NCBI RefSeq assembly: GCF_001807485.1 | Contig: NZ_KV789171.1 | Location: 32,655 to 96,654 of the forward strand | Reading direction: 5' to 3' | DNA: 64,000 bases | Origin: Corynebacterium sp. HMSC08A12 | GTDB taxonomy: Bacteria > Actinomycetota > Actinomycetes > Mycobacteriales > Mycobacteriaceae | Shown: positions 1,243 through 62,527 of the stretch, one piece after another | How the letters are laid out: each line of letters opens with the position of its first letter | Position numbering within the stretch: position 1 is the stretch's first letter | Position numbers and translations under genes: made by a program | The notes under the pieces: model-generated | What the model was told of the DNA's origin: nothing | Database searches by the model: none | What the model saw: only the letters and a program-made list of their open reading frames with translations

Positions 1243-1872
1243 TTAGGCCACCCCGAAGCGGCGCTTGTTCTTTGTTGTCTTTTCTTTCTTTGTGACGCCA
1301 CCCTGTCCCTCGCCAGCCATCTCAACCAAGTCGGCGCGGGCGCGGGCAACGCGGGAACGGATCGTGCCCACGCGGACGTTAGCGATCTTCGCGGCCTCGG
1401 CGTAGGTGTAGCCCAGAACCTGCGTGAGGATCAGAGCCTCGCGGCGTTCCGCCTCCAGCTGGTCGATGAGGGCGCGAGTGTCCACCCACTCGGCCCAGCT
1501 TTGCCCGCCAGTGGTTTCGGCGGCGGGGGTGGCGCTGGTGGCGTCCTCAATCTCCGTGGCGGAACTGCGGGGGCGGGCCATATCGTGGCGCACGCTATCG
1601 ACCCACACGCGGCGGGCGAGGGAGAGAATCCAGGTGCGGGCCGTGGAGCGGGCGGCGAAGCGCGGCAGGGCGCTCAATACGCGCAGGTAGGTCTCCTGGG
1701 TGAGGTCGTCCGCGCGGTCGGTATCGGCCAGGTGAGCCAGCAGGCGCCACACGTCGTCGTGCGTGGCGGAAATGAATTCTGTCAACGCCTGGCGGTCGCC
1801 ACTGGCGGCGCGCAGGGCAAGGTCGGTCACGGCGGCATCGTGCGCCTGACTGCTGGTTGCCTGGCTGGTCAT
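1243..1872 (-). CDS. sigC: ECF RNA polymerase sigma factor, SigC-like
   Basis: A 209-residue extracytoplasmic-function sigma factor that redirects RNA polymerase to a small regulon; the corynebacterial SigC next to katA is linked to respiratory-chain control (family knowledge). Region 2 is recognisable around DDLTQETYLRVLSALPRF, and region 4 as ALILTQVLGYTYAEAAKIANVRVGTIRSRVARARADL, split here only by reading order. I chose the ATG at 1872 (MTSQATSS) over a TTG two codons upstream. No anti-sigma gene is adjacent. It diverges from katA with only 81 bases between starts. The C-terminal tail after region 4 is Lys/Thr-rich and is encoded by one exact copy of the dispersed motif described in the findings. 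Confidence 0.88.
   Translation of the reverse strand: MTSQATSSQAHDAAVTDLALRAASGDRQALTEFISATHDDVWRLLAHLADTDRADDLTQETYLRVLSALPRFAARSTARTWILSLARRVWVDSVRHDMARPRSSATEIEDATSATPAAETTGGQSWAEWVDTRALIDQLEAERREALILTQVLGYTYAEAAKIANVRVGTIRSRVARARADLVEMAGEGQGGVTKKEKTTKNKRRFGVA
1285..1299 (-). repeat. Dispersed motif GGCGTCA-N2-AAGAAA, exact copy
   Basis: Reads GGCGTCA-CA-AAGAAA on the minus strand, inside the last codons of sigC, where it encodes GVTKK. Confidence 0.6.
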
Positions 1873-1920
1873 GGACAAAGCCTAACACGCGGGTGTGGAG
1901 ATTCTGGCAAGGTGGAATGC

Positions 1921-1934
1921 ATAGCCAAAGCTAT
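1921..1934. promoter_or_regulatory. Inverted repeat upstream of katA
   Basis: A perfect ATAGC-N4-GCTAT inverted repeat lies 20 bases before the katA ATG and just upstream of its GGAGG ribosome-binding site (1944-1948). Its place in the 81-base sigC/katA divergent spacer suggests an operator, but I cannot name the regulator. Confidence 0.35.
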
Positions 1935-1953
1935 TAGGTATCTGGAGGTACCC

Positions 1954-3585
1954 ATGACTGCTACGAATAATGACGGCACCAATAACGACCCAATCACCAC
2001 GGCCAAGGACGTCGCCTCCCGCGGCGTGTGCCCCTACTCCGGGGCGTCGACGAACGTGAACGGTTCCCCGGTCAGCACCGAGGAGCACTCCGCGACCGTG
2101 GGCCAGCAGGGTCCGCTGCTGCTTTCCGATGTGCACCTGGTGGAAAAGCACGCGCACTTCAACCGCGAGCGCATCCCGGAGCGCAACGTGCACGCCAAGG
2201 GCTCTGGCGCCTTCGGCGAGCTGACCATCACCGAGGACGTCTCCAAGTACACCAAGGCGGATCTGTTCCAGCCGGGGCGCGTGACCCCGATGCTGGCCCG
2301 CTTCTCCACCGTCGCGGGCGAGCAGGGCTTCCCCGATGCGGTGCGCGACGTGCGCGGATTCTCGCTGAAGTTTTACACCCAGCAGGGCAACTACGACATC
2401 GTGGGTAATAACACCCCGGTGTTCTTCCTGCGCGATGGCATTAAGTTCCCCGACTTCATCCGCTCCCAGAAGCGCCTGGCGGATTCCGGCCTGCGCTCCG
2501 CGGACATGCAGTGGGATTTCTGGACCCGCTCCCCGGAGACCGCACACCAGGTGACCTACCTGATGGGCGACCGCGGCATCCCGACGGACTTCCGCCACAT
2601 GGACGGCTTCGGCTCCCACACCTACCAGTGGATCAACGCCGCCGGCGAGCGTTTCTGGGTGAAGTACCACTTCAAAACCCGCCAGGGCTGGGATTTCTAC
2701 ACCGACGACGAGGCCGCCAAGGTCATCGCTTCGGGCAACTTCGATTCCTCCCGTCAGGATCTTTATGACGCCATCGAGCGCGGCGATTACCCGACGTGGG
2801 ATGTGAAGGTGCAGATCATGCCTGTCGCCGAGGCGCAGGACTACCGCTGGAATCCGTTTGACCTGACGAAGACCTGGTCGCAGAAGGATTACCCGCTGAT
2901 TCCGGTCGGCCACTTCACGCTGAACGAGAACCCGCAGAACTTCTTCGCTCAGATTGAACAGGCCGCCTTCGCACCATCGAACCTGGTGCCGGGCATTGGG
3001 CTGTCTCCGGACAAGATGCTGTTGGCTCGTGCCTTCGCCTACGCCGATACGCAGCGTTACCGCCTGGGCGTGAATTTCCACCAGCTGCCTTCCAACCGTT
3101 CCGTCGTGGCGGAGAAAAACTACTACACCGCCAAGGACGGCGCGGGTAACCAGGAGTTCCCGCCGGCCGGCACCCCGGTGTACTCCCCGAATCGCTTCGA
3201 GCGCGGCGAGGGCACAAACGACGTCAACGACGGCTCCGGTGCCGTCGAGCAGGGCGTGGCCGCCGGTGAGTCCCAGTACGGCTTCGGCCGTGGCCAGGAA
3301 TCCGCCGTGACCGCCGCTGAGGAGCTGGGTCTGTTCGACGATCTGCACGGCACCGACCTGACCCGTGGAGCTTATGTCCGCCACCCGGAGGACGACGACT
3401 TCATCCAGGCGGGGCAGCTGGTGCGCGAGGTTCTGGATGACGCCGCCCGGGAGCGCCTGGCAAACAACATCGCAGGCGCGATGGACGGTGTGTCTGACCA
3501 GGTGGCTGAGCAGTGCTGGACCTACTGGGGCAAGGTCGACGAGAACCTGCGCGACCGGGTGAAGGAAATCTTCACCGGCAAGTAG
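1954..3585 (+). CDS. katA: Monofunctional haem catalase
   Basis: Catalase disproportionates hydrogen peroxide in the cytoplasm. The 543-residue product has the small-subunit size. The distal-haem His is about residue 80 in RIPERNVHAKGSGAFG, the catalytic Asn is in IVGNNTPVFF (about 152-153), and the proximal haem-ligand Tyr is about 363 in RAFAYADTQRYRLG. The ATG at 1954 follows GGAGG with good spacing; reading can extend far upstream in frame, but that part is antisense to sigC and has no family similarity. Divergence from sigC and closeness to ferrochelatase (haem supply) and Ohr make a coherent peroxide-defence block. A strong stem-loop follows the stop. Confidence 0.97.
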   Translation: MTATNNDGTNNDPITTAKDVASRGVCPYSGASTNVNGSPVSTEEHSATVGQQGPLLLSDVHLVEKHAHFNRERIPERNVHAKGSGAFGELTITEDVSKYTKADLFQPGRVTPMLARFSTVAGEQGFPDAVRDVRGFSLKFYTQQGNYDIVGNNTPVFFLRDGIKFPDFIRSQKRLADSGLRSADMQWDFWTRSPETAHQVTYLMGDRGIPTDFRHMDGFGSHTYQWINAAGERFWVKYHFKTRQGWDFYTDDEAAKVIASGNFDSSRQDLYDAIERGDYPTWDVKVQIMPVAEAQDYRWNPFDLTKTWSQKDYPLIPVGHFTLNENPQNFFAQIEQAAFAPSNLVPGIGLSPDKMLLARAFAYADTQRYRLGVNFHQLPSNRSVVAEKNYYTAKDGAGNQEFPPAGTPVYSPNRFERGEGTNDVNDGSGAVEQGVAAGESQYGFGRGQESAVTAAEELGLFDDLHGTDLTRGAYVRHPEDDDFIQAGQLVREVLDDAARERLANNIAGAMDGVSDQVAEQCWTYWGKVDENLRDRVKEIFTGK

Positions 3586-3602
3586 CCGCCACTGGCCGCA
3601 GC

Positions 3603-7992: not shown

Positions 7993-10900
7993 TGGTTCTC
8001 TCCCTTCTCCTCGTGCTGTTCTTGCTGTTCGGTGTTTTTCTTAGCGACGCCATCAGGCTCCGCTGCCTTAGCCTCAGCTCCGTCCTTGACGCCCTTCACC
8101 GGCGCGCGGGCCGCCTCGCGCTCGGCCCGGTGGGCCTCTTCCTCCGCCTTCGCAGCAGCGGAGACCTGGGAGGGGTTGAGCGGGATGTTGCTGCCGCCGA
8201 CAGTCACAGCCACAGGCGAGGGCTTCTTGGCGGGATCCGCCTTGCCCTCGATGGGCGTGGGGCGCTTGCCCTTGGAGTTCGGACCCATCTTCTGCGTGGC
8301 AGTCTGGGCGCGGAACTTAGACTTCAGCGTTGCCGGGTCTGTACCCGGGCGCTCACGGCCGCCCATCTGGTTGATGACAATGACCACCAGGCCGAGCACT
8401 GCCAGGTACACGCCGCCGTCGAAGATCAACGAGGTGGATACGTGCTGGCCCAGAACATCGGCGTGGATTGGGGAGAGGAAGCCGTCCTTGAAGTAGCCGA
8501 TCAGGCCGGTGATCAGCGCCATCGCTACGCCCGCGCCGACGAAGGTGTAGGCCACCTGATCGGTGAAGATCTTCTTGGCCCGAGCCTGCGCCAGGTAGTA
8601 CATAAAGATGCCGCAGGCTGCGATCAGGGCGGCGACGAAGCCGCCGCCGGGGGACTGGTGGCCGCGCCAGAACGTGGCGGCGGACAGCAGCGCCAGAATC
8701 GGGATCAGCGGGTACATCGTCATCCGCGAGTTAATGGAGTTCAAGTGCGTGGAGCGCAGGTACTTGGAGTAGAACGGCGCCAGCTCCGGAACCTTGTGTA
8801 CATCCGGGAAGCGGGTGGAACCCGGGGCGCGGAACAGCTCCGCGGTGGAACCCGGGCCGTAACCCGGAACCGGGGAACGGGGGATGGACTTGATCAGTGC
8901 GGCGATGACGATGCCCGCCATGCCCAGCACCGTCAGCTCGCCCAAGGTATCGAAGGCACGGAACTCCACCAGGATGACGGCGACTACGTTATTGCCGCCG
9001 GAGATCTCCGGGGTGTTCTCCAAGTACCACTGCGCGATCGCAGGCTTCTCGTGGCGGCCGATGAGCAGCCACACGCCCAGGAAGGTAACCACGCCGACCA
9101 GCACCGCCAGAACTGTGGCGAAGCGGGTACGGTTTGCGCCCTCGCGCAGGTACAGGCGCGGCTGGTGGCGGATCACCAGCATCATGATGACGACCACGCA
9201 GAACTCGACCAACAACTGGGTGGTGGCCACGTCCGGTGCGCCTAGTGTCAGCATGACCCAGGAAACGCCCACGCCGACCACACCGACCAGCACCACGGAA
9301 GCCAGGCGCGAGCGAGTACCAATCATCACGAGCACACTCAAGCCGATAATCACCAGGCCAACGAGGTCCACGATGCTGTCGATCCCCTCGACACGCGGCG
9401 GCAGATCCGCCAGCCCCTCCAGGCGACCCGGCCCCAGCAGGGAGAAGCCCGCCAGCACAATCAGCGAGGCGAAGATCCACACCACGTGCCGGTTGGGGTT
9501 CACAGAGTTCGCCAGGCGGCCAAACGCACGGCCCACCTTGGTCGAGCGTTCGATGAATGCGGAGATCATCTCCGCGCCCGTTGCCACCCCGAGACGCTTG
9601 CCCTCGAGCGGCTGGAGCAGAGGGCGTCGATAAATAACAACAATGACGCCCGCGACCAGCACCGCGAGAGAGATCCAGAGCGCCACAGTCAGGCCGTGCC
9701 AGAGCGCCAGATGAGTGTGCGCGTCGCCCAGACCCGTGGCGTAAACCACGTGATCGAGAGTCTCGTCGAACACGCCCAGGAACGCGACACCCGGCAGGGA
9801 AAGCACGCCCGGCAGCACCGCCGGAATCCACAGGTTCGCCGGAGCCTCCTTGACGTGCGAGACATCCTTCGGTCCATCGACGAACGCACCCAGAACGTAG
9901 CGCGCGGAGTACACGAAAGTGGCCAGCGCGCCGATGCCAGCCGCGATCAGCAGGGCGATCACGCCGGCATTGTTAAACGGCGCCTCCTCAAACGCGGTGA
10001 GCATGCCCTCCTTCGACACAAAGCCGAAGGTCGGGGGAATAGCAGCCATTGACGCCGCCGCGATCACAGCGGACACAAAAGTAAAGGGCATCTGGCGCCA
10101 CAGCGGACCCAGGCGACGAATGTCACGCGACCCGGCCTGGTGATCCACCACGCCGGCGATCATGAACAGCGAGGACTTAAACAGCGCGTGGGCGGCCGTG
10201 TGAACCAGCGCGGCGCTGATGGCGAAGGGAGTGCCCACGCCAATGGTGGCGACGATCCAGCCCAGCTGGGAGACCGTGGAGTAGGCCGTGAGCTTCTTCA
10301 GATCCGTCTTCTGGATGGCGAACACGGCGCCCATGATGGCGGTGGTCATGCCGATGACGATCAGCAGGACGTGCCAGGCCATCACACCCTCGAACAGGCC
10401 GGAGAAGCGCAGCAGCAGGTACACGCCGGCCTTGACCACGGCGGCGGCGTGCAGGAAGGCGGAAACCGGGGTGTCCGCGGCCATCGCCTCCGGCAGCCAG
10501 AAGTGGAAGGGAATCTGCGCGGCCTTCGAAAACGCGGCCAGGGCGATGAGGACTGCGACGATGGCCAGGCGGACATCTTGGCCCTCCCAGGCGGGGGAGT
10601 GCAGCATCGCCGTGAGGTTCGTCGTTCCCGTGGTGATTACGCCGATGGCCAGGGCCGCCAGCAGGAACAGGCCGCCGACGAAGGTTAGGAGGAGGGTGCG
10701 GATGGAGCCGGCCTCGCCGCCGGAGCCCGAGCGGGCGATGAGGAAGAACGAGGCCAGGGAGACCAGCTCCCAGCCGATGAACAGCAGGGCAACGTCGTCG
10801 GCCAGAACCAGCAGGAGGACTGCCAGCATGAAGGAGGTCATGAGCACGTAGAAGCTCATGATCTTGTCGCCCTTGTGCAGGTAAGCGGCGGAGTAGATGA

Positions 10901-13575: not shown

Positions 13576-15888
13576 TTAGCGGAGCTGATTCAGGAAGTCA
13601 TCGAGGTCGGCGAGGCCGCGGCGGATCTCCGGCGGGAGGTCCAGCTCCCCTTGGCCCTGCGGGGCCTGCGGGGCGGGCGCGGAGTTGCCGCCACCCGGGG
13701 CGCCACCACCCGATCCGCCGGTGGACGCGGGCGCGCCCCACTTGCCGGGGTTCGTACCAGCGTCGTACTTCTTGTCGTAGGAGGGCAGCTTGCCGCCACC
13801 GTACTTCTTGATCATTGGCTTCGAGGCCTCGAAGAAAATCTGTGCGGGCTCATTACCGCCGTAGAGGTTGCCGTTGCCGCATTGGCGCACGGGCGCGGTG
13901 CACAGGTTCTTGGCGGTGCCACCGTCGTTAAAGATGTAGGAGGATCCGGCCCAGCCGGAGGTGAAGCCCAGGAACGCGGCGGAGAAGCTGGTTTCCGTCG
14001 TACCCGTCTTGGCGGACAGCGGTCCGCTCCAACCCGCCGCGCGGGCAGAAGCGGAGGCCGTGCCCTGCTGCACGTCGCTGCCCAGGCCGTTGGCCAGTGC
14101 GTCGGCGATCTTCTTGTCGATGGCCTGCTCGCAGTCCACCTTCTCCATCTCCACGTCCTCGCCGTTGCGGTCCTTCACGGACAGCACGGGCGTGGGTTCG
14201 CACCAGCGCCCGTGGTCGGCCAGGCTGGCGGCGACGTTGGAAAGCTCTAGCGGGTCGACGGCCGTGGGGCCCAGCACGAAGGAGCCGAGGTTGTTGTCCT
14301 TGACGTACTCCTCCACGGAGTTCTCGCCGTCGAAGCTGCCCTCGTTCTTGTAGGAACGCAGACCCAGCTTGATGGCAATGTCCGTGATGCGTTCCATGCC
14401 CAGCTTCTCCGCCATCTCGATGAAGGGAGTATTCGGGCTGGTCGCCAGCGCTTCCTTCAACGTCATGTTGGGCTTGTAGGAGCCCGCATTTTCCACGCAG
14501 TACTTGTTCGGCGGGCAGCCGGGAGCGCCGCCTGCACCCATGCCTTCAACTTCGGCGCGGGTGGGCACGGCGAGGTTGGTGTTGAGGCCCATGCCGTCTT
14601 CCAGCGCCGCCGCGGCCGCGAAGATCTTGAACACGGAGCCGGCGCCGTGCCCCTGCAGCGAGTGGGGCAGCGGCAGCACGGATTCCCGCTCGTCCTGGCT
14701 CAGGCCGTACTTGCGCGAGGAGGCCATGGCCAACACCTGATGCTTGCCACCCTTGGGCGTGATGTAGTTCGTCGCGGCGGATACGCCCTCCTGGTCCGGG
14801 GAGACCTTGCTGCGGGCGGCCGTCTCCGCATGCTTCTGCGCCTGCGCATCCAGCGTGGTGCGGATGGTGTAGCCGCCCTTGGCCACCTCGTCCTTGGAGA
14901 TTCCCTTCTTGTCTAGGTACTCCATCACGTAATCGCAGAAGAACCCGGAGCCACCGGCGCCGATGCAGCCGTTGGCGGGAACCTTCGGCTCCTCCAGCAC
15001 GCCCAGCGGCTTGCTCGCCAGCTCATCCGCCTTGGCCTGCGAAAGGCTATCCGCGTTCACGCGCGCCTGCAGCACGGCATCGCGCCGCTGCTTCGCACCC
15101 TCCGGGTTGGTGTACGGGTTCAGCGCGCTGGTGGATTGCACGATTCCGGCCAGGAAGGCCGCCTGATTGTCGTTCAGATCCGCCGCGTTCACGCCGAAAT
15201 AGGTTTGCGCCGCGGCTTGCACGCCGAAGGCGCTGTTGCCGAAGGAGACCAGGTTCAGGTAGCGCGTCAGGATCTCGTCCTTAGTCAGCTTTTCGTCCAG
15301 GTCGCCGGCCATCTTCATCTCGCGCAGCTTGCGGGGCAGCGAAGTCTCGATGGCCTGGGCGGCCTCGTCCTCGTTCTCCGCTTCGATCAGCCATAGGTAG
15401 TTCTTCACGTACTGCTGGTTGATCGTCGACGCGCCCTCCGAGACCCCACCGCTAGAGACGTTCGCCGCCGCCGCGCGCAGGGTGCCGCGGATATCTACGC
15501 CTTTGTGCTGGTAGAAGCGCCGGTCCTCGATGGCGACGATGCTGTCCTTCATTGCCTGGGAGATCTTGTCCGAGGGCACTTCAGTGCGGTTCTGGTTGTA
15601 CACCCAGGCGATTGTCTTGCCGTCCCGGTCGGTGATCCGCGAGCGCAGCGGCACCGAGTTGTTCTCGGAAATGTCCTGCACATTGGAGTTCATCGCGTCC
15701 GTGCTGGCGTTTACCACCCAACCGCCCGCGCCCGCGAAAGGCAGGATGGCGGCGGCTAGCAGCACGCCACCGGCCAGGATGGCGAGGAAAAGTTTCAGAA
15801 ATGCCTTCGGTGCGTCCACGGCTATCACCATAACCCACGCCCCGGACAACCCTTTAGCCTTTTTGCCCTTTCTTTGTGACGCCCACAC
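13576..15888 (-). CDS. ponA: Bifunctional class A penicillin-binding protein
   Basis: It polymerises and cross-links peptidoglycan outside the membrane. The 770-residue protein has one N-terminal membrane anchor (KLFLAILAGGVLLAAAILPF), a glycosyltransferase domain (EDRRFYQHKGVDIRG; STINQQYVKN), and a transpeptidase with SVFK as the SxxK box, SPN, and KTG in AKTGTTE. The tail is Gly/Pro/Ala-rich and extends about 60 residues. The start is GTG at 15888, inside an exact copy of the dispersed motif; an in-frame ATG about 19 codons later is an alternative. It diverges from whcA across 391 bases. Confidence 0.95.
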   Translation of the reverse strand: MWASQRKGKKAKGLSGAWVMVIAVDAPKAFLKLFLAILAGGVLLAAAILPFAGAGGWVVNASTDAMNSNVQDISENNSVPLRSRITDRDGKTIAWVYNQNRTEVPSDKISQAMKDSIVAIEDRRFYQHKGVDIRGTLRAAAANVSSGGVSEGASTINQQYVKNYLWLIEAENEDEAAQAIETSLPRKLREMKMAGDLDEKLTKDEILTRYLNLVSFGNSAFGVQAAAQTYFGVNAADLNDNQAAFLAGIVQSTSALNPYTNPEGAKQRRDAVLQARVNADSLSQAKADELASKPLGVLEEPKVPANGCIGAGGSGFFCDYVMEYLDKKGISKDEVAKGGYTIRTTLDAQAQKHAETAARSKVSPDQEGVSAATNYITPKGGKHQVLAMASSRKYGLSQDERESVLPLPHSLQGHGAGSVFKIFAAAAALEDGMGLNTNLAVPTRAEVEGMGAGGAPGCPPNKYCVENAGSYKPNMTLKEALATSPNTPFIEMAEKLGMERITDIAIKLGLRSYKNEGSFDGENSVEEYVKDNNLGSFVLGPTAVDPLELSNVAASLADHGRWCEPTPVLSVKDRNGEDVEMEKVDCEQAIDKKIADALANGLGSDVQQGTASASARAAGWSGPLSAKTGTTETSFSAAFLGFTSGWAGSSYIFNDGGTAKNLCTAPVRQCGNGNLYGGNEPAQIFFEASKPMIKKYGGGKLPSYDKKYDAGTNPGKWGAPASTGGSGGGAPGGGNSAPAPQAPQGQGELDLPPEIRRGLADLDDFLNQLR
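15869..15883 (-). repeat. Dispersed motif, exact copy
   Basis: GGCGTCA-CA-AAGAAA on the minus strand, codons 2-7 of ponA (WASQRK). Confidence 0.6.
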
Positions 15889-16029: not shown

Positions 16030-16044
16030 GGCGTCAAAAAGAAA
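16030..16044 (+). repeat. Dispersed motif, exact copy
   Basis: GGCGTCA-AA-AAGAAA, intergenic. It faces the ponA copy in opposite orientation, 146 bases away. Confidence 0.6.
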
Positions 16045-26080: not shown

Positions 26081-26132
26081 TTATTCACAGGGTCTAGGCC
26101 CTTTTTTATGACGCCAACCCGACTTTTCCACA
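26081..26132. promoter_or_regulatory. DnaA-box-like sites upstream of the tad locus
   Basis: TTATTCACA (26081-26089) is a perfect DnaA box (TTATNCACA). TTTTCCACA (26124-26132) differs from TTATCCACA by one base. Both are in the 154-base HAD/ssd divergent spacer. A degenerate dispersed motif (26103-26117) lies between them. Confidence 0.45.
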
Positions 26133-27390: not shown

Positions 27391-27425
27391 GGGTATAGGG
27401 GACAAAAGGGACGGGGGAGACGTAG

Positions 27426-28601: not shown

Positions 28602-28616
28602 TGGGAGGAGCGAACG

Positions 28617-29756: not shown

Positions 29757-29888
29757 GAGCAATGGGCACCGACGCGAGGTGAAGGCCACTCCTGGAGAAG
29801 CAACTCACACCGACATCCGACGTCTACCGATCACAACTCACTCGACACGGCGGCGCGCCTTTTGCGTCGCCGGGGAAGGACACTGACC

Positions 29889-30218: not shown

Positions 30219-30298
30219 TCCGGATGGCTTCTCGTTAGCCTCCGGGGTCACACAGCGCCCCGCGCGCCGGGTCTCTTCAATCGGGACGGGCGCGTGGG

Positions 30299-41183: not shown

Positions 41184-42434
41184 ATGACGGAAACCACGCC
41201 GGCCACCACCGCGGCCACTACCCGGGCCACCGCCGCCGAAGAGGCGCCGGGGGTTTTCGGGCGCATCACCGCGGAGTCCGTCCGCCGCCCGCTGCAGAGG
41301 GCTGTGGAGGATCCGCAGGCGATGACCCACTCGTGGCTGTTTACCGGCCCGCCCGGCTCGGGGCGGTCCATCGCGGCGAAGGTCTTTGCCACCGCGTTGG
41401 TGTGCCCGCACGGTGGCTGCGGCGAGTGCGACCAGTGCCGGAGCGCGGCCGCGGGCACGCACCCGGACATCCTGTGGGTCTCCACCACGGGAGTGGTGCT
41501 GACGGTCGACGAGATCCGCGGCGCCATCCACGAGGCCGCAAACATGCCCACCGTCGCCCGCTGGCGCGTGGTGGTTGTGGAAGATGCCGACCGCCTGAAC
41601 GATGCCGCCGCCAACGCTTTGCTGAAGTCCGTCGAGGAGCCGCCCGCCCGCACCGTCTTCCTGCTGTGCGCGCCCTCGACCGACCCTTCGGATATTGCGA
41701 TCACCCTACGGTCGCGCTGCCGCCACGTGTACGTGCCCACTCCCTCGCCGGCGGCGGTCAAGGGGGTTTTGCTTAGTGACGCCACCTTAGGCCTCAATGA
41801 AACCCAAGCCCAATGGGCCGCCGACGTCTCGGCCGGACACATTGGAAGGGCTCGCCACCTGGCCAGCGACGAGGCCGCCCGCACCAAACGCGCCACCGCG
41901 CTGAAGCTGCCGCAGCTGGTGTACGAACCCAACGCGCTGTACCGCTTCACCTCCGAGCTGGTGAAGAAAGCCGAGGAAGAGGCCGCCAGCGAGCTGGAAA
42001 AGCTGGATCAGCGGGAGCGTGAGGAACTGGAGAGCAGCCTCGGCGTGGGCGCGAAAGGCAAGGGTGCTGCAAAGGCTCAGCGGGGGGCGTCCGGAAGAAT
42101 GAAAGAGCTAGAAAAAGAACAGAAGAACCGGCGCACCAGAAGAACCCGCGACTCGCTTGACCTGGCGCTGATCGACATTGCCGGGCTGTACCGCGATGCG
42201 ATGCTGCAGGCCGCGGGCGCGGTGGAAGGCGATGGCGTGCCGGTGGGCGGCCACCAGCACCCGGACATGGCGGCGACGTCGAAGGAACTGGCGCGGCGTA
42301 ATAGTGCGTCGGCGCTGGTGAGCTGCATCGATGCGGTGATGGAATGCCGCGAGGTGCTGGGGTACAACGTGCGGCCTGAGGTGGCGCTGGATGCGATGGC
42401 GGGGCGCCTGCAGCAGTGCTGTGGGGTGGCCTAG
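41184..42434 (+). CDS. holB: DNA polymerase III delta-prime subunit
   Basis: A clamp-loader subunit of 416 residues. The Walker A is GPPGSGRS, with Arg where ATPases have Lys, as expected for the non-hydrolysing delta-prime. The zinc module is CPHGGCGECDQC, and the SRC motif is in RSRCRHVYVP. Between about 265 and 330 is a long charged, Glu/Lys/Arg-rich segment that looks coiled-coil and is longer than in enterobacterial HolB. LLSDAT in domain II is encoded by a dispersed-motif copy. It diverges from cyaB. Confidence 0.9.
   Translation: MTETTPATTAATTRATAAEEAPGVFGRITAESVRRPLQRAVEDPQAMTHSWLFTGPPGSGRSIAAKVFATALVCPHGGCGECDQCRSAAAGTHPDILWVSTTGVVLTVDEIRGAIHEAANMPTVARWRVVVVEDADRLNDAAANALLKSVEEPPARTVFLLCAPSTDPSDIAITLRSRCRHVYVPTPSPAAVKGVLLSDATLGLNETQAQWAADVSAGHIGRARHLASDEAARTKRATALKLPQLVYEPNALYRFTSELVKKAEEEAASELEKLDQREREELESSLGVGAKGKGAAKAQRGASGRMKELEKEQKNRRTRRTRDSLDLALIDIAGLYRDAMLQAAGAVEGDGVPVGGHQHPDMAATSKELARRNSASALVSCIDAVMECREVLGYNVRPEVALDAMAGRLQQCCGVA
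41769..41783 (-). repeat. Dispersed motif, one mismatch
   Basis: GGCGTCA-CT-AAGCAA on the minus strand, inside holB. Confidence 0.45.
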
Positions 42435-45836: not shown

Positions 45837-46547
45837 CTAGTACCCCGCGCGGATTGCGCTGATGGCTAGCCGCAGGCGCGAATCCACCCCGAAGCGCTTC
45901 ATCAGCGAGGACACGTGCTTCTTCACGGTCGATTCCGCGTAGAGCGCCTCCTTCGCGATCTCCGCGTTGGAGTGCCCCTGGACTAGAAGTTGCAGGGTGG
46001 TGCGCTCGCCTTCCGGGATGCTTTCCGGGTCTGGCGCCGCGCCGGGTTGCTCTTGTTTATTTGGTGACGCCGACTTCCCCGCCTGCACAGCTGCCCCACC
46101 GACAGAGCGTTCGGGGATAAAGTCCACGAGGCGTGAAAGGCACTCGGGGGAGACGGCGGTGCCGCCGTTCATCGCGTCCCGGACGGCTTGGATGAATTGC
46201 ACGGGGCGGGCGCTTTTGATGATGTACCCCGCCCCGCCGCTGGTGAGGATCTCCAGCATCGTTTCGTCGGTGTCCATGGAAGTCATGGCGACGAACACAG
46301 GGGGATTGTCCTGGGATTGCAGGGTGCGGAGTAGCTCGATTCCGCCGACCTCGGGCATGTGGATGTCCGCCAACACGAGGTCGAGGTCTCCCCCTAGTCG
46401 CTCGATCTGTTCGAGGGCGACGGCGCCGTTCTCGGCTTCGGCTACGATCTCAATGTCTTTGGCGACAGAGAAGTAGTGGCGGAGGGCGGTCAGCGCCCGG
46501 GCATCGTCATCGACAATGAGGATTCGTGTGGCAGGGGCGTTACTCAT
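45837..46547 (-). CDS. NarL/LuxR-family response regulator
   Basis: A 236-residue two-component regulator. The receiver domain has DDDARA, the phosphorylated Asp in LVLADIHMPE, Thr in AMTSMD and Lys in IIKSARP. The output LuxR helix-turn-helix is GHSNAEIAKEALYAESTVKKHVSSLMKRF. The linker (about 140-170) is Gln/Pro-rich and longer than usual, and carries a degenerate dispersed motif. Its ATG overlaps the kinase stop by four bases, so the pair is cotranslated with the kinase first. Confidence 0.92.
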   Translation of the reverse strand: MSNAPATRILIVDDDARALTALRHYFSVAKDIEIVAEAENGAVALEQIERLGGDLDLVLADIHMPEVGGIELLRTLQSQDNPPVFVAMTSMDTDETMLEILTSGGAGYIIKSARPVQFIQAVRDAMNGGTAVSPECLSRLVDFIPERSVGGAAVQAGKSASPNKQEQPGAAPDPESIPEGERTTLQLLVQGHSNAEIAKEALYAESTVKKHVSSLMKRFGVDSRLRLAISAIRAGY

Positions 46548-48082: not shown

Positions 48083-50284
48083 CTACTCCGCCTGCCCCGC
48101 GGCGGGGTCCGACTCGTACTTGGGGACCATCGCCTCGTAGCCCTCCATCAGCTTCAGGTCCGTGATGTGGTCCGGGATGCCGAAGGCGTCCACCAGCGTC
48201 TGCGACCAGGGCCCCAGGGAATCCACCAGGTCGTTCAGCGCGGCGCGGGCGGCCTTGGTGCGGGTACCCGTCAGCAGGTTCTGCTCCAGGTACCAGCTGG
48301 CGTTATCCACGATGCAGCTGAGGAAGTACACCAGGCGCACCTGCTCCAGCACGCGCTGCGCGTCTTCTGAATCCAGCTTGGACTCGGCCTCCACGAAGGC
48401 CTCGAAGATGATGCGATCGACGTGTGCCCAGCCGACGGCCAGCAGGTGATCCTGCGCGCGATCGACTACCTTCGCCGCTTCGTCCACATCCATCTTGCGG
48501 GCGGGGCGCAGGCGGCGGGCGAGGGAGCGCATCAGGCGGTCCTCCCGCTCGCTCAGCAGGTTGATCTGGTAGGCCGGGTCGAACAGCGAGGTCTCCTCGG
48601 AGTCGCTGAACGTATCCACCAGGTTCTGGATCAGCGCGTCCGCGGCGGTGCGGCGGCGCAGCAGGTTGCCGAAGCTATCCAGGCCGAAGCGCACCATCTC
48701 CATCGGGTTCAGGCCGCCGAGCTCCTTGGCGAAGCCCGTCATCAGCTCCTTCGCTGCCAGTTGCATCATCACTACGTTGTCGCCCTCGAAGGTGGTGAAC
48801 ACATCCGAGTCGGCCTTCAACGTGGTCAGCAGGTTCTCCGCCATGTAGCCCGCGCCGCCGCAGGCCTCGCGGGCCTCCTGGATCGTGTCGGTGGCGTGCG
48901 CGGTGTTGGCGGCCTTCAGCGCTGCGGCGTGTGCCTCAACTTCTCGCTGGTCGGCCTGCTGTTCCTTGGTGTATTCGGTCGGTTCCACGCCCCGCTGGTC
49001 CAGCTCGTGCACGCGCGCGATCAGCTTGTTCGTGGCGAACTGCAGGCCGTAGGCGCGGGCCACGCGCGGGATGAGGCGCAGGCGGTGCCAACGGTGCTCG
49101 ATCAGGCGGTTTTCGGGTAGCGAATCGTCGGGAGCGAATTGACGCCGCAGGTTCGCGTACGTCACAGCGATGTCTAGCGCGGTGCGGGCGGCCGCGCCTG
49201 CGGCAGCTCCCACGGTCACGCGCCCGCGCACCAAGGCTCCGAGCATCGTGAAGAAGCGGCGGTTCGGGTTTTCAATGGGGGAGGTGTAGTTGCCGGCCTC
49301 GTCCACGTCGGCGAAGCGGTTCAGCAGTGCCTCGCGGGGCACGCGGTGGTTATCGAAGCTGATGGTGCCGTTGTCCACACCCTTCAGCCCGCCCTTGTGG
49401 CCGTGGTCGCCGATGCGCACGCCGTCGATGGGGGAGCCGTCGTCTTCGCGGATGCGCACCAGCAGGCAGTGCACGCCCTGCGATTCAGCCTGCGCGTCGT
49501 CGTCAGCCTCGGTCGCCGAGTCGTCGTCAGCCTCGGTCGCGTTCTTAGTGTCAGGAACAATGAGCTGCGCAAACACTGCCGCCCAACGGCCATCGCGCGC
49601 TGCGTTGCCGATGAACCACTTCTCGGCAGAGGCGGTGGGGGAGTTGATGATGAACTCCTGCGTCTCCGCGTCGTAGGTCGCAGTGGTCTCCAGCTGCTGC
49701 ACGTCGGAGCCGTGTCCGCGCTCGGTCATGGCGAAGCAGCCGAGAGCTTCGAGGTTCATCAGCTTCCCCACCATCTCCTGGTGGCGTTCGGTTCCCAGGT
49801 TGCCGACGGCGCCGCCGAACAGGCCCCACTGCACTCCGGACTTCACCATGAGCGACAGGTCGGCATGCCCCAGCATCTCGATGGAGGTCAGGCAGCGGCC
49901 GGTTTCGCCCGTGCCGCCCTGGTCGGCGCGGAAGGCGTGGTTTGGCATGCCGGATTCGAGCACACGCTGCAGGTGCTCGGTGGTGCGGGCGCGGGACTGC
50001 TCGAGGTCCAGGTCGGTGCGTGGCAGGATGTCTGGGTCTGCCAGCAGGCTGCGGGTTTCCTCGCGTGCTTCTGGGAAGTCGCCGTCGAGGACGGTCTGTA
50101 GAGCCTTTGCTATTGACGCCTGCGTCTCAGCGGTTGGAGCCGTGGACAAGGTCTTGGGCGCCGACGTGGAGCGGCGGAGTTTGTTTCCAGACTTGTCAGC
50201 AATTCCATCGGCTGGGCTCGATGTGACCGAGCTATCAGTCGTTGCGGTGTTTTCGGTCGTGTTCTCGGAATTGTTTGGTGACAT
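48083..50284 (-). CDS. Acyl-CoA dehydrogenase/oxidase-like flavoprotein
   Basis: A 733-residue FAD enzyme of fatty-acid beta-oxidation. The architecture is that of acyl-CoA oxidases: N-terminal part about 1-120, FAD/middle domain with FAMTERGHGSDVQQLETTATY, helical domain with EACGGAGYM (a loop near the base) and TFEGDNVVMMQLAAKEL, then a C-terminal domain of about 180 residues. The usual short acyl-CoA dehydrogenases are about 380 residues. A 21-base tandem repeat gives ATEADDDSATEADDD in the middle domain. It fits use of exogenous fatty acids released by lipases (inference). Confidence 0.87.
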   Translation of the reverse strand: MSPNNSENTTENTATTDSSVTSSPADGIADKSGNKLRRSTSAPKTLSTAPTAETQASIAKALQTVLDGDFPEAREETRSLLADPDILPRTDLDLEQSRARTTEHLQRVLESGMPNHAFRADQGGTGETGRCLTSIEMLGHADLSLMVKSGVQWGLFGGAVGNLGTERHQEMVGKLMNLEALGCFAMTERGHGSDVQQLETTATYDAETQEFIINSPTASAEKWFIGNAARDGRWAAVFAQLIVPDTKNATEADDDSATEADDDAQAESQGVHCLLVRIREDDGSPIDGVRIGDHGHKGGLKGVDNGTISFDNHRVPREALLNRFADVDEAGNYTSPIENPNRRFFTMLGALVRGRVTVGAAAGAAARTALDIAVTYANLRRQFAPDDSLPENRLIEHRWHRLRLIPRVARAYGLQFATNKLIARVHELDQRGVEPTEYTKEQQADQREVEAHAAALKAANTAHATDTIQEAREACGGAGYMAENLLTTLKADSDVFTTFEGDNVVMMQLAAKELMTGFAKELGGLNPMEMVRFGLDSFGNLLRRRTAADALIQNLVDTFSDSEETSLFDPAYQINLLSEREDRLMRSLARRLRPARKMDVDEAAKVVDRAQDHLLAVGWAHVDRIIFEAFVEAESKLDSEDAQRVLEQVRLVYFLSCIVDNASWYLEQNLLTGTRTKAARAALNDLVDSLGPWSQTLVDAFGIPDHITDLKLMEGYEAMVPKYESDPAAGQAE

Positions 50285-53133: not shown

Positions 53134-54714
53134 CTAGTCTTGCAGCCTCTCGCCGAGCTCGCCGAGCCGCTGCCCAACGCGCTTCAGCGCATCCACGGCA
53201 CGCGCCGGCCCGGAAGCATCGACCATTTCCGCGGCGGGGCCCGCGGGAAGATCGCGTAGCTGCTCCTCGCTGAGCTCGATGCCCTCGTCGCCTGGGAAGT
53301 CGGGCAGTTCTTGGTGACGCAACCAGCGGTCGAACAGCCCCTGCACCTCACTTCGGGCCACACCGTTTTCCTCGGCGACGGTGCTTGCTAGGTTCTCCAG
53401 GTCGCGCGTTTCCACCAACCCCATGCGGTGCTGCGTGGTCCAGCGCTTAACCATGTCGAAGAACGCCTCGTCACCCAGTAGCACGCGCAGGGCGTGGACG
53501 GTCACACCTCCGCGCTTGTACAGCCGGTCGTCGAACATATCTTCCGCACCGGGGTCGATCAGCAGGATGTCCTGTGGCTTCTCCGCGAGCGCCTGATGGT
53601 GCGCCCATGCATGGTGGGAGGCGGGGATGCCTTGTGACTTTTCGAACCACAGCCACTCGGAATAGCAGGCGAAGCCCTCGTTGAGCCAAATATCCCGCCA
53701 CTCGACCAGGCCGACGGAGTTGCCGAACCACTGGTGGGATAGCTCGTGGGCGATCAGGCGCTCCCAGGTGTGCTTGCCATCGGCATGATTGCAGCCAAAC
53801 ATGCTCATGCCCTGGGCTTCCAGGGGAATCTCCATCTCCTCGTCCGTGACCACCACGGAGTATTCCGGAAAGGGGTAAGAGCCGAAGAGCTCCGAGTAGA
53901 CTTCGACCATCTCCGTCTGCTGGCCGAAATCCTCGTTGACCAGCTCACGGACCCGCTTGGCGTGCTCCGTGCCTTCGGGGAGCCAGCCGAATACCGGGAC
54001 GGTCTTGCGGCCGAGCTCAGCGCTGCGGAAATCGACCCGCCTAAAGGGACCGACGTACACTGCGGCCAGGTAGGTGGCCATCGGATAGTTGGTTTCAAAC
54101 ACCCGGGTGGTGTTGTTGCCCTTGCTGTACTGCTCCACCAGGGTGCCGTGGGCGATGGCGGTGACGTCCCGGTGGGCGGTGATGGCCACGCGGAACATCG
54201 CCTTTTCGTCCGGCGTATCGTCGCAGGGGAGCCAGCTGGGGGCGCCATTGGGCTGGCCTGCCACCAGGGCTCCGTCATCGGTTTCCTCCCAGCCGACCTC
54301 GCCCCACTTGGAGCGCAGCGGGCGCGGGTAGCCGCCGTATTTGATGGTCAGGTCGAAGGACTGATCCTCGGCAATCTCCTCTGCGAAAGTGATCGAAAGC
54401 TTGTTGCCGTTGTGCCGGAAGCGACGGATCTTCATCGCGTCGTTGTTGGCAGCCGCCCCGTGGCCGGTGACCTCCACGCGGTTGACAGCGAGATTGTTGG
54501 CCAGGTCTAACGTCATGGTTTTCAACGGACGGTAGTTCTCGACCGCCAGGCGGGCCACGCCGCGCAGGTGGTTGGGTTCAACGTCGTAGTCCAGCTGCAG
54601 GTCGTAGCGCAGTACGTGGAACCCGAGGTTGAAGTCCACGCCCGTGTAGGCATCCCGAGCTCCGGCGATGGGGGAGCTGCGAAAAGGACGAGGCTGCTGT
54701 TGGGATTGCTTCAT
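53134..54714 (-). CDS. M1-family zinc metallopeptidase
   Basis: A 526-residue aminopeptidase-like enzyme. The zinc motif is HELSHQWFGN with the third ligand Glu in NEGFACYSEW, 18 residues on. The Gly-x-Met-Glu-Asn motif of aminopeptidases is changed here to EAQGMSMFGC, so exopeptidase specificity may differ. The N-terminal saddle domain (LRYDLQLDYDVEPNHLRG ... WLPCDDTPDEKAMFRV) is typical of M1, but the last domain is short, as in the two-domain actinobacterial form. No signal peptide, so it is cytosolic. The ATG at 54714 is chosen. Confidence 0.92.
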   Translation of the reverse strand: MKQSQQQPRPFRSSPIAGARDAYTGVDFNLGFHVLRYDLQLDYDVEPNHLRGVARLAVENYRPLKTMTLDLANNLAVNRVEVTGHGAAANNDAMKIRRFRHNGNKLSITFAEEIAEDQSFDLTIKYGGYPRPLRSKWGEVGWEETDDGALVAGQPNGAPSWLPCDDTPDEKAMFRVAITAHRDVTAIAHGTLVEQYSKGNNTTRVFETNYPMATYLAAVYVGPFRRVDFRSAELGRKTVPVFGWLPEGTEHAKRVRELVNEDFGQQTEMVEVYSELFGSYPFPEYSVVVTDEEMEIPLEAQGMSMFGCNHADGKHTWERLIAHELSHQWFGNSVGLVEWRDIWLNEGFACYSEWLWFEKSQGIPASHHAWAHHQALAEKPQDILLIDPGAEDMFDDRLYKRGGVTVHALRVLLGDEAFFDMVKRWTTQHRMGLVETRDLENLASTVAEENGVARSEVQGLFDRWLRHQELPDFPGDEGIELSEEQLRDLPAGPAAEMVDASGPARAVDALKRVGQRLGELGERLQD

Positions 54715-56065: not shown

Positions 56066-56421
56066 AGAATTGATCCTTCTGTGGGCACGCTGGGGAAACG
56101 TCAGTAACTCTCGCCCGGGGCGTGAGGTACTCAGTCGAATGTGTGAAAAAGACCTGCAGGGTGTTTTCGGTGGATATTCGGGGAATATTCAAGAAATCCA
56201 CAGCAAATCTCTAAGGACACAGGAGACTTTACCTAATCTGCGGGAATTTTGGGAACCCAAAGGAGGAAAAACTTTCTCCATTAAACCCAAAAGCGGGTAC
56301 AAAGTGGGGACGTGCGCCTAAGGGGAGGCGGGTGGCGTCAATAAGAAAGAGAAAGGGCGGGACCAAGAGCAAGACGAGCCCGACAAACACGAGCGACAAA
56401 CATTAAGTACCCTTGGGACTT
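56066..56421. promoter_or_regulatory. Mycolyltransferase/lpd divergent spacer
   Basis: A 356-base control region. It contains the palindrome TTTGGG-AA-CCCAAA (56248-56261), a GAATATTC site near 56185, an orphan AGGAGG (56261-56266) with no start codon after it, and one exact dispersed motif (56334-56348). No gene is seen. Confidence 0.5.
56334..56348 (+). repeat. Dispersed motif, exact copy
   Basis: GGCGTCA-AT-AAGAAA in the lpd upstream region, 74 bases before the GTG start. Confidence 0.6.
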
Positions 56422-59160: not shown

Positions 59161-60690
59161 CTAGTAGGGCGACACACTCGAACGGTGCGGGTCGATCTCC
59201 AACGAGCGGTGGATCGGCGGGAACGCGCGCTGCGGGCAGTTATCGCGCGGGCACAGCCGACAACCGGAGCCGATCGGCACTGCCGCGGACGTGTCCTCTA
59301 GGTCCAACCCGTCCGAATACACCGTCCGGTCGGCGTGCCGCAGCTCGCAGCCCAACCCGATGGCGAACATCTTCCCCGGCTGGCCCCATGCCGCACGGTG
59401 GTGGTTCACGGTGCGCGCGATCCACAGGTAGGTTCTCCCGTCTGGCATCTGCGCGATCTGCCGCATGATCTTGCCCGGATAGCTAAACGTCTCATACACA
59501 TTCCACAGCGGGCACGTGCCGCCGGAGTTGGAAAGGTGCAGGCCCGTCGCCGACTGGCGCTTGGACATGTTGCCCGCACGGTCCACGCGCACGAAGGTCC
59601 AGGGCACCCCGCGCAGGCTGGGGCGCTGCAGGCTGGAGAGGCGGTGGCAGACCGTCTCGTAGCCCACGCCGTATTCGCGCATAAGGAACTCGAGGTCGTA
59701 GCGCGATTCCTCCGCGGAGCTGTGGAATTGCCGGTAGGGCAGTAGCAGTGCTGCGGCATAGTAGCTGGCCAGGCCGCGCCGGGCGAGCGCGCGGGATTCC
59801 TCGGACTGGAAGTGCCCCAGCTCCACCAGCGAGTTGATGGTCGTGCCCGCCTCCAGGAACGCCAGTTCGGTGGCCAGTCGGAATGCGATCTGCCCGGGGC
59901 GCATCTTCGCCGACACGTGGAGAGTCTTTCGCTTTGGGTCGAACTTGTGCTGCGTATCGCCCAGGTCGCGCGAGTAAATCACCTGCACTTGGTGCACCTG
60001 TTGTAGCCGTTCGGCGATGATCTGTTCTGTGTGGTGTATCTGGTTCGCCCCGATGTTTATTTTGGACGCCAACTTCTCCGCCGCTACATCCAGAACATCG
60101 ATATAGTTCTGCCGGGCGTAGAAGAAATCGCGGACCTCCTCGTGCGGCATGGAGAACGCCTCTGGCCCGGAGGCCCGGCCGAAGAGCTCACCCTTGGGAG
60201 TGATGGAGAGGATGGCGGAGCCCTGCACACGCTCCTCTGTGAGCAGCGAGAGGGTGTCCGAGACATTCCGGTAGCGGGAGTGGAGATCCACGAAGGCGCG
60301 GGCCAGGTCCGGGTGGTTCTTCACCAGTGCTGCGAGCTCGGTGACGTCCGCCGGGGTGGGGCTGATCTCCGGGTCCAGGGTGACGTCCTGGACTTCCGCC
60401 AGTAGGCGGGTGGAGTCTTGGTCGGCGAAGAAGGTTGGGTCGATGCCGAAGGCGGCGGTGATGCGCTCCAACACGGCGGCGGTCAGCGGGCGCCCGTCGT
60501 GCTCGATCTGGTTCACGTAGCTGGCAGAGAGGTCCAGGATCTCGGCGAGGCGGGCCTGGGAGATTCCGCGTTCCTTGCGTAGTTGGCGAAGGCGGGAGCC
60601 GACGAAGGGGCGTTCGGTGTTGCTTTCAGGGGCGCGTTCGGGTCTGCGTTCAGATGTGGGTTCAGATGTGCGTTCAGTCGGTTTTCCCAT
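59161..60690 (-). CDS. ramB: RamB-type regulator of acetate and glyoxylate metabolism
   Basis: A 509-residue transcription regulator of the XRE/ScfR group. The N-terminal HTH is [30 protein letters not shown]; the middle is a divergent IrrE-like domain; the C-terminal domain has a cysteine cluster [17 protein letters not shown]. In C. glutamicum RamB represses aceA, aceB and acetate activation genes. The ATG at 60690 is used; a GTG three codons upstream is possible. The first 30 residues are Glu/Arg/Ser/Thr-rich, from GTTCAGATGTG-like DNA repeats. It follows aceA on the same strand, after a terminator. Confidence 0.93.
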
Positions 60691-60873: not shown

Positions 60874-62169
60874 TTAGTGGAACTGGCCCTCCTCGGTGGA
60901 GCCCTTCAGGGCGGTGGTGGAGGAGTTCGGGTCGACGGTGGTGGCGATCTTGTCGAAGTAGCCAGCACCGACCTCGCGCTGGTGCTTCACAGCGGTGAAG
61001 CCGCGCTCCTTGGCGGAAGCGAACTCGCGGTTCTGCAGCTCCACGAAAGCGGTCATCTGGTTGCGGGCGTAGCCGTAAGCCAGGTCGAACATGGAGTGGT
61101 TCAGAGCGTGGAAGCCAGCCAGGGTGATGAACTGGAACTTGAAGCCCATTGCGCCCAGCTCGTTCTGGAACTTGGCGATGGTGTCGTCGTCCAGGTGTGC
61201 AGACCAGTTGAAGGACGGGGAGCAGTTGTAAGCCAGCAGCTGGTCCGGGTACTCGGAGCGAACAGCCTCAGCGAACTTCTTAGCCAGCTCCAGGTCCGGG
61301 GTGCCGGTCTCCATCCAGATCAGGTCAGCGTACGGAGCGTATGCCTTCGCACGGGCGATGCAGGGCTCGATGCCGTTCTGCACGTTGTAGAAGCCCTCAG
61401 CGGTGCGGCCGCCGGTCAGGAACGGCTTGTCGCGGTCGTCAACGTCGGAGGTCAGCAGGGTAGCGGCCTCAGCGTCGGTACGAGCGACAACCAGGGTCGG
61501 GGTGTTGGCAACGTCAGCTGCCAGACGTGCGGAGTTCAGGGTACGGATGTGCTGCTGGGTCGGGATCAGGACCTTGCCGCCCAGGTGGCCACACTTCTTC
61601 TCGGAGGCCAGCTGGTCCTCCCAGTGGGTACCTGCAGCGCCGGCCTTGATCATGGCCTTCTGCAGCTCGTAAACGTTCAGTGCGCCGCCGAAGCCAGCCT
61701 CGCCGTCGGCAACGATCGGAACCAGCCAGTTGTCAACGGAGGTGTCGCCCTCAACGCGAGCGATCTCGTCTGCGCGGGACAGCGCGTTGTTGATGCGCTG
61801 AACGACGGACGGAACGGAGTTCGCCGGGTACAGGGACTGGTCGGGGTAGGTGTGGCCGGACAGGTTAGCGTCACCTGCAACCTGCCAACCGGACAGGTAA
61901 ACAGCCTTCAGGCCTGCGCGGACCTGCTGAACGGCCTGGTTACCGGTCAGGGCGCCCAGGGCGTTGATGTAGGAGTCGTCACCCTTGTTGACTGCTTCCC
62001 ACAGGATCTCAGCGCCGCGGCGTGCCAGGGTGTGCTCTTCAACAACGGTGCCCTGCAGCTCTGCGACCTGCTCTGCGGTGTAATCGCGCTCGACGTGAGC
62101 CCAGCGGGGGTTCTCGTCCCAGTCCTTCTGGATTTCTTCAGCGGTACGTGCCTTGCCGACGTTCGACAT
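60874..62169 (-). CDS. aceA: Isocitrate lyase
   Basis: First glyoxylate-shunt enzyme: isocitrate to glyoxylate and succinate (431 residues). The catalytic loop is [10 protein letters not shown] with nucleophile Cys; metal and substrate motifs include [30 protein letters not shown] and NCSPSFNW. The start at 62169 (MSNVGKART) matches the corynebacterial protein; an ATG eight codons upstream (MSKEVTPY) is also in frame and has its own purine-rich site. It diverges from aceB and is followed by its terminator and ramB. Confidence 0.97.
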
Positions 62170-62429
62170 GTAGGGGGTCACTTCCTTACTCATTAAGGGG
62201 AGAGTTATGTCTTGGTCCCTGCCCGGGGGTTCCTGGCGGGGGGACACCGAGCCGCATATTCGAGAACCTCGACAGCACTTTCCAGTGCAGCCTAGGTGAA
62301 GTCTGCGTTCCGTGTCTCTACCTACGAGAGTACCAACCTAAATAACCACGTCAATGCCGGTCAGGCGGATATTTCTGTGTGGGGGTGACTCCCTTTTTTG
62401 TGAATGTTGTAAAGTTTTCCTCCACGCTG

Positions 62430-62444
62430 TTTCTAAGTGACGCC
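62430..62444 (-). repeat. Dispersed motif, one mismatch
   Basis: GGCGTCA-CT-TAGAAA on the minus strand, 13 bases from the RamB-like box. Confidence 0.5.
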
Positions 62445-62512
62445 TTAACGTCAGAACGTGATGTGGCTCTCTTGCTGCGCTTATAGGTGTGGTGCGCCAC
62501 GGGTTCACTCGT

Positions 62513-62527
62513 GGCGTCAAAAAGAAA
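62513..62527 (+). repeat. Dispersed motif, exact copy
   Basis: GGCGTCA-AA-AAGAAA in the aceA/aceB spacer, the inverted partner of the copy at 62430. Confidence 0.6.

Follow-up and report, generated by a model that had tools for sequence, protein, structure and literature searches.

A clade-specific dialect of a Corynebacterium DNA word as a candidate DNA uptake sequence

Results

The word and its setting in a 64-kb window

The DNA considered here is a stretch of 64,000 nucleotides (the window) from Corynebacterium sp. HMSC08A12 (assembly GCF_001807485.1, contig NZ_KV789171.1, positions 32,655 to 96,654 of the forward strand), a member of the C. jeikeium group, and the element in question is a short, non-palindromic DNA word, GGCGTCA-NN-AAGAAA, that is dispersed between and within its genes. 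The features of the window are collected in Table 1. Six exact and seven one-mismatch copies had been listed in the original prediction, which was made from the letters of this window, and all of them lie on the strand and at the position at which they had been placed. Together with eight two-mismatch copies the window holds 21 copies, whereas 100 dinucleotide shuffles of the window gave a mean of 1.04 copies and at most 5. The looser relatives that had been listed alongside stood in part: those at 2758, 26101, 46057 and 53307 are two-mismatch copies and those at 13407 and 52102 carry three mismatches, while near 20951 no copy with three or fewer mismatches was found.

Several sites were followed in related loci. 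The exact word at 15869 was called intergenic by our home-made gene finder, which chose a later gene start, yet it lies within the frame 13576-15888; the same place is occupied in L181, L182 and L183 and holds a variant in L184. The word at 16030 is retained in L181-L184. At the 8037 site the window and L181 have G as base 7 and L183 has A, a difference within the jeikeium group.

Table 1. Copies of the word and the Tad pilus gene cluster in the window (ponA, topA and holB are names used in the original prediction)
Feature	Position	Strand	Context
Exact word	1285..1299	-	3' end of sigma-70-family gene 1243-1878 (-); sigma factor domains found
Exact word	15869..15883	-	5' end of long frame 13576-15888 (ponA)
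Exact word	16030..16044	+	intergenic, between ponA and the next gene
Exact word	27428..27442	+	first base is the third base of the start codon of TadA-type ATPase gene 27426-28601
Exact word	56334..56348	+	intergenic
Exact word	62513..62527	+	intergenic
One-mismatch word	8037..8051	-	G at position 7; close to 3' end of a long gene
One-mismatch word	30299..30313	+	between tad genes
One-mismatch word	32500..32514	+	between convergent predicted genes
One-mismatch word	36297..36311	-	antisense within a gene (topA)
One-mismatch word	39520..39534	+	close to 3' end of a gene
One-mismatch word	41769..41783	-	antisense within a gene (holB)
One-mismatch word	62430..62444	-	intergenic
Two-mismatch word	2758..2772	-	
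Two-mismatch word	3430..3444	-	
Two-mismatch word	26101..26115	-	
Two-mismatch word	42086..42100	+	
Two-mismatch word	46057..46071	-	
Two-mismatch word	50106..50120	-	
Two-mismatch word	53307..53321	-	
Two-mismatch word	60056..60070	-	
Tad pilus gene cluster, candidate uptake machinery (putative link)	26185..31010	+	Pfam

Anatomy and abundance

The anatomy of the word was examined in a 464-kb sample composed of the window and the 400-kb contig C9 of the same genome. The 36 one-mismatch copies in this sample showed no change at positions 2-6, and their changes fell at positions 1 (1), 7 (5), 10 (1), 12 (7), 13 (3), 14 (7) and 15 (12). Because the changes are confined to position 1 (once), position 7 and the tail, the core is near-invariant and the tail flexible. 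The word therefore starts with a GGCGTC core, favours A as its seventh base, leaves the next two bases free and ends in an A-rich tail, which peters out over a few further bases; the bases upstream lean towards G with little else conserved. When an A-rich tail is defined as at least 5 A in 8, and GGCGTC followed by such a tail as a core-plus-tail word, 107 of the 490 GGCGTC occurrences in the sample qualify, against 4.1 expected from six permuted cores.

The source genome (G000, 2.21 Mb) contains 93 exact 13-position copies, 47 forward and 46 reverse, and the reversed pattern, which served as a control, has none. In synonymous shuffles (60 each), codons were shuffled within predicted genes, leaving the proteins unchanged, and two-base blocks were shuffled between genes. 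Exact copies numbered 6 in the window versus 0.03 after shuffling, 10 versus 0.05 in contig C9, and 8 versus 0.03 in the orthologous 400 kb of a second genome, G080. The corresponding one-mismatch counts were 7 versus 0.33, 29 versus 0.97 and 33 versus 0.83, and the two-mismatch counts were 8 versus 1.2, 52 versus 9.8 and 49 versus 9.7. Letter-permuted patterns (1,000 of them) gave a mean of 0.008 copies and a maximum of 1 in the 464-kb sample, in which the motif itself has 16.

Core-plus-tail words behaved alike under synonymous shuffling (25 shuffles each), with 89 versus 4.9 in C9, 83 versus 5.5 and 80 versus 5.4 in two 400-kb samples of G080, 63 versus 3.5 in C. suicordis (260 kb), 67 versus 4.4 in C. 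dentalis (309 kb) and 49 versus 3.7 in G018 (200 kb), a 13- to 18-fold drop in these six samples. Corynebacterium sp. NML98-0116 (200 kb) has just 12 core-plus-tail words versus 3.5 and 44 copies versus 1.6, a 27-fold difference, of GGCGTCGANAAG, the main dialect of the word in the genus. An excess arising from codon or dipeptide bias, such as that of Gly-Val-Asp-Lys or Leu-x-Asp-Ala, would agree with the lean of in-gene words to the antisense frame reading GAC GCC (32 of 63 in C9) and with the finding that GGCGTCGANAAG is several times as frequent as its reverse in some genomes outside Corynebacterium (27 versus 6 in G287), which is what codon use would give. Codon and peptide bias is nevertheless not the explanation, because synonymous shuffling removes most copies; it is refuted for the samples tested, and we regard it as very improbable in general. 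The over-representation lies far beyond codon and composition bias, as is expected of an uptake sequence. These results bear out the earlier claim that the word occurs far above chance and support the view that selection acts on the DNA word and not on the peptide. A count no higher than chance, or one explained by codon or dipeptide bias, had been named as grounds for abandoning the claim; neither was found, the shuffles and permutations having replaced a whole-genome third- or fifth-order Markov count, and a fourth-order expectation having been used in the gapped-word searches described below.

The bare core behaved in its own way. GGCGTC was less frequent than in the synonymous shuffles in C9 (426 versus 608), in G080 (420 versus 530 and 398 versus 514) and in C. 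dentalis (241 versus 328), as though these genomes avoided the core when it stands alone, and more frequent in NML98-0116 (440 versus 336).

Conservation, dialects and distribution

Contig C9 and G080, which represent different species, align over 369 kb at 91.3% identity. Aligned exact sites were identical at all 13 positions in 8 of 9 cases from C9, where one of the 10 exact sites lacked a gap-free alignment, and in 8 of 8 from G080, compared with 7,229 of 19,855 random 15-mers. One-mismatch sites were kept in 24 of 29 and 24 of 31 cases (2 of 33 unaligned), the two directions counting many sites twice. The two free bases of the word varied at a rate like that of the flanks. Nucleotide alignment of the jeikeium group with C. 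dentalis and C. suicordis was too sparse, with only 4 and 2 words aligned, of which 1 and 0 were kept.

A gapped-word search, run with no prior pattern, with one count per kilobase, N masked and a fourth-order expectation, returned the motif as the top word in G000 (window and C9) and its variants as the top words in G080. The top words were GGCGTCG-plus-A-rich in C. dentalis and C. suicordis and GGCGTCGANAAG in NML98-0116 (G134), and in G018 a GCGTCG-plus-A-rich word was within the first three, an unrelated word leading. The form GGCGTCGNNAARAA is present 160 times in G213 and 107 times in G037, with control counts of 1 and 0; match counts, coordinates and ComEC E-values assign these two genomes to C. 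suicordis and C. dentalis, respectively. Over all words, base 7 in G080 (400 kb, n=80) is A in 57, C in 14, G in 8 and T in 1, while it is G in 61 and A in 2 of the 63 words of C. suicordis and G in 63 of 67 in C. dentalis. The fixed inner core is thus joined to clade-specific dialects, a property of uptake sequences, and the word seen in the window is the local dialect of a genus-wide word.

The dialect difference was further followed at orthologous positions. The 600-1000 kb region of G080 and C. suicordis share 156 reciprocal best hits with a mean identity of 68%. Seven word pairs (six distinct sites) lay in the same orientation at matching offsets in orthologous genes, their distances from the gene end differing by no more than 45 bp, against a null mean of 0.92 and a maximum of 4 of 300. 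All six sites carry G as base 7 in C. suicordis, where G080 has A at four and C at two. The base-7 contrast, both overall and at these matched sites, indicates that whole dialects differ, partly at sites apparently older than the split. A first gene-based comparison with few shared genes had given 2, 0 and 1 matched pairs against null means of 0.28, 0.12 and 0.03, and the other three orthologous-region comparisons gave 0, 0 and 2 matches among 10-15 gene pairs at about 32% identity, too poor a basis for comparison.

Among 242 Corynebacterium genomes the exact motif has 67-93 copies in six and 0-2 in the other 236, at least one copy being present in 35. Four of the motif-rich six, identified through loci with equal counts, are C. 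jeikeium Cj47444 and Cj37130 and Corynebacterium sp. ACRPH and ACRQK; the ponA proteins of the window and of Cj47444 share 99% identity. C. gallistercoris has no exact copy, C. suicordis one and C. dentalis two. The main dialect GGCGTCGANAAG, on the other hand, totals 37,499 copies (18,670 forward, 18,829 reverse) over the 242 genomes versus 1,091 for the reversed form, with at least 30 copies in 165 genomes, at least 100 in 130 and 839 in the highest. C. glaucum DSM 30827, assigned to G060 through its ComEC coordinates, has 238. Outside the genus, GGCGTCRNNAARAA has at most 13 copies in a sample of 293 other genomes of the order, and GGCGTCGANAAG at most 35, in 9.5 Mb, in a smaller sample of 120. 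A viral origin of the word was rejected, since among at least 120 viral-contig stretches the 80 listed hold one match each, which we take as background.

The dispersal of the copies and the clade restriction of the exact form could also be read as remains or targets of a mobile element. No conserved flank beyond the fading tail, of the kind expected of miniature inverted-repeat transposable elements (MITEs) or repetitive extragenic palindromic (REP) repeats, was found in the aligned copies, so that similarity ends with the word and its tail. Copies within genes, retained orthologous sites and dialects in other clades likewise speak against such an element, which we consider very improbable.

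Repeats and words unrelated to the motif were also observed. C. dentalis contains an array like clustered regularly interspaced short palindromic repeats (L279-L294, G248:C6), in which TCCCCG-N6-CGGGGA occurs 202 times on both strands in 309 kb. Unrelated over-represented words in NML98-0116 (L305-L314) and G018 (L295-L304) are TTTGTGAACAGA (8 versus 0.007) and ATGTGCNNNAGAACT (6 versus 0.015), and a second word, AATGTCNNAAAAGT, was seen in G100 (L336-L341, 102 kb; 5 versus 0.004).

Placement on the chromosome and absence from plasmids

Gene context was assigned with the home-made gene finder, whose gene starts are uncertain. In agreement with the earlier observation, copies occur inside genes as well as between them, with both strands and several frames represented, and such scatter is a further property expected of uptake sequences. 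Exact copies are enriched between predicted genes in the 464-kb sample (10 of 16), as would be expected of operators or promoter elements belonging to a large regulon. One-mismatch copies, however, are intergenic in 6 of 36 cases and lie within predicted genes in 30, sense and antisense and many hundreds of bases from starts, and the 32500 copy stands between convergent genes; a regulon is therefore an improbable explanation.

G080 is a single 2.52-Mb contig that opens with a dnaA-like gene, recognised by eye. Its 80 exact copies lie all round the chromosome, with 22 on the plus and 18 on the minus strand of one arm and 18 and 22 on the other. Signals of the Chi type or of the FtsK-orienting polar sequence (KOPS) type, which are read along the chromosome in recombination or translocation, are strand-polarised. 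Such a signal would share with the word its over-representation, conservation and restriction to a genus, but no strand polarity relative to the replication arms was found among the exact copies of G080, and the strands of GGCGTCGANAAG are balanced genus-wide; this possibility seems if anything slightly more improbable than the regulon. A stretch of G080:C1 between 1,411,344 and 1,600,169 is without exact copies.

Seven C. jeikeium plasmids, which are mutually related and total 87 kb, contain no core-plus-tail words, with 18.6 expected from 1,264 kb of chromosome (270 such words). No plasmid copies within one mismatch were found against 9.1 expected, and a single two-mismatch copy is present. 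The plasmids are A-richer, yet lack core-plus-tail words. Similarly, the 29.9 kb of C9 that are absent from G080 hold 2 of its 89 words versus 6.6 expected. Uptake sequences are expected to be poor in plasmids and other foreign DNA in this manner.

Candidate uptake machinery

The Tad pilus gene cluster of the window was delimited by Pfam matches, namely T2SSE at 27426-28601, T2SSF at 28617-29756 and DUF4244 at 29862-30218. Weak matches below the cut-off were obtained for Tad at 30687-31010 (E 5e-4) and ParA at 26185-27390 (E 2e-4), and no Pfam family was found for 30359-30667. The cluster itself holds two words, at 27428-27442, overlapping the tadA start codon, and at 30299-30313.

The ComEC frame is free of stops in all 6 jeikeium-group genomes, and in G080 the frames of comEA, comEC and a holA-like gene are uninterrupted, ComEA and HolA having been identified by eye. 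Of the 242 genomes of the genus, 241 have ComEC and 239 have a T2SSE ATPase, the latter scoring over the cut-off in 235. Competence genes, as expected beside an uptake sequence, are thus present without discriminating power, and gene presence was rejected as a means of separating word-rich from word-poor genomes, as T2SSE and ComEC are near-universal. Individual departures were seen: the word-poor G123 (8 copies) has a ComEC with an internal TGA, the word-poor G185 (11 copies) has no ComEC match, and the word-bearing G014, G090 and G229 have two ComEC matches each with weaker E-values.

Discussion

We propose that GGCGTCA-NN-AAGAAA is the C. jeikeium-group dialect of a word, found in most of the Corynebacterium genomes examined, that is most likely a DNA uptake sequence with species dialects, and we place the probability of this reading, which is drawn from sequence comparison, at roughly 0.58. 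The route served would probably be that of the Tad pilus, ComEA and ComEC. An uptake-type word was the first of three roles offered in the original prediction and, short of proof, is the best of them because of the dialects, the clade limits, the balanced strands, the chromosome-wide scatter and the absence from plasmids. Binding of the word, uptake and a receptor are what we infer from these patterns. A surface DNA receptor, probably a Tad pilus part or ComEA, would attach to free DNA at the word, and the word-bearing DNA would enter via ComEC and then recombine with the chromosome. The patterns seen fit such biased uptake because uptake that favours word-bearing DNA would allow words born by mutation to spread and be kept, a shift in receptor specificity would rewrite hundreds of sites together and yield species dialects, and plasmids, where they undergo no recombination with the chromosome, would stay without words. 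In its widest form the proposal is of a genus-wide, dialect-forming recognition of self-DNA for natural transformation, independently evolved around GGCGTC, with a probable Tad-pilus or ComEA receptor and dialects that act as sexual barriers; these would be the first uptake words outside the Neisseriaceae and Pasteurellaceae. The chances of this wider proposal appear only slightly better than even.

A number of observations weigh against uptake. GGCGTCGANAAG has at most 12 copies in 51 of the 242 genomes, one of which, G176, has the jeikeium dialect instead. Possession of the machinery does not account for the difference between word-rich and word-poor genomes, since ComEC and T2SSE are near-universal. 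The word is sparser than known uptake words: its exact form has 93 copies, and core-plus-tail words number about 0.2 per kb (270 in 1,264 kb); thousands of copies per genome are typical of uptake sequences, without defining them, and the maximum of GGCGTCGANAAG is 839. Among the papers listed from the open-licence literature, none reported natural transformation in Corynebacterium or such a word in this genus. Finally, the exact copies of G080 lean towards the origin (28, 21, 20 and 11 per quarter from origin to terminus; Kolmogorov-Smirnov [KS] P 0.017), as does the looser GGCGTCANNAARNAA (26, 17, 19 and 16; KS P 0.016), the latter counted on the plus strand only (78 copies) and giving a non-significant Rayleigh test (P 0.34). 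A slope towards the origin is not predicted by uptake.

This slope is more readily expected of the main rival, in which the word is bound inside the cell by a protein that organises the chromosome, a nucleoid-associated, nucleoid-occlusion or segregation factor, whose specificity has drifted between clades. Such a protein would suit the conserved sites, of which a genome has dozens to hundreds inside and between genes, and plasmids without the word. Nucleoid-occlusion sites of the Noc or SlmA type are palindromes and do not occur in a wide zone around the terminus. The Corynebacterium word resembles them in its tens of exact copies and some thinning near the terminus, but is neither palindromic nor excluded from the terminus: the excess on the origin side of G080 is mild, the terminus quarter retains 11 of the 80 exact sites, and core-plus-tail words are no sparser at the terminus than in mid-arm (83 and 80 words in 400 kb each), the two regions sampled. 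The lack of strand polarity, the concerted base-7 switch over many sites, which is hard to achieve without a copying bias, and the near absence of the main dialect from about a fifth of the genus also tell against it. A chromosome-organising protein accounts for the conservation and the mild origin slope and less easily for the dialect switch; we judge it unlikely, and by far the most serious of the alternatives considered.

Non-palindromic words that fill a genome and combine a fixed core with species dialects are known as the uptake words of two Gram-negative families, the Neisseriaceae (PMC3630211) and the Pasteurellaceae (PMC12616744). The DNA uptake sequence (DUS) of the Neisseriaceae has eight dialects, and N. 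meningitidis carries about 1,900 10-mers of the uptake word (PMC3630211). The Corynebacterium word is like the DUS in being short, non-palindromic, genome-wide and divided into dialects around a fixed inner core. It is unlike the DUS in its core, GGCGTC instead of CTG, in its occurrence in Actinomycetota and in its tens to hundreds of copies in place of thousands; no ComP-like receptor is known for the Corynebacterium word, whose uptake role is putative. The uptake signal sequence (USS) of the Pasteurellaceae has an inner core GCGG and extended forms with an A/T-rich side (PMC12616744). Both words combine an invariant GC-rich core with a flexible A/T-rich tail behind it, and the USS is likewise divided by clade, into two types, while the Corynebacterium word differs in its core and its phylum, which has Tad pili, and in the putative nature of its uptake. 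Copies of the Pasteurellaceae USS also outnumber those of the jeikeium-group word. In Micrococcus luteus the tad genes are required for transformation, and many actinobacteria carry tad genes together with ComEA/ComEC (PMC4322843). The M. luteus system belongs to the same phylum as Corynebacterium, where the same candidate gene set is found. A text search of PMC4322843 and PMC8467076 for 'uptake sequence' and 'uptake signal' found neither term.

If the uptake reading is true, the word would be a third and independent case of an uptake word, in Gram-positive actinobacteria, and would imply widespread natural transformation in a genus with skin commensals and pathogens among its members. A shared dialect would then predict which species exchange genes, and the receptor could be found by matching dialects to protein changes. 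Should uptake fail as the explanation, a genus-wide word with whole-genome dialect differences would still point to an undescribed DNA-binding factor in Corynebacterium.

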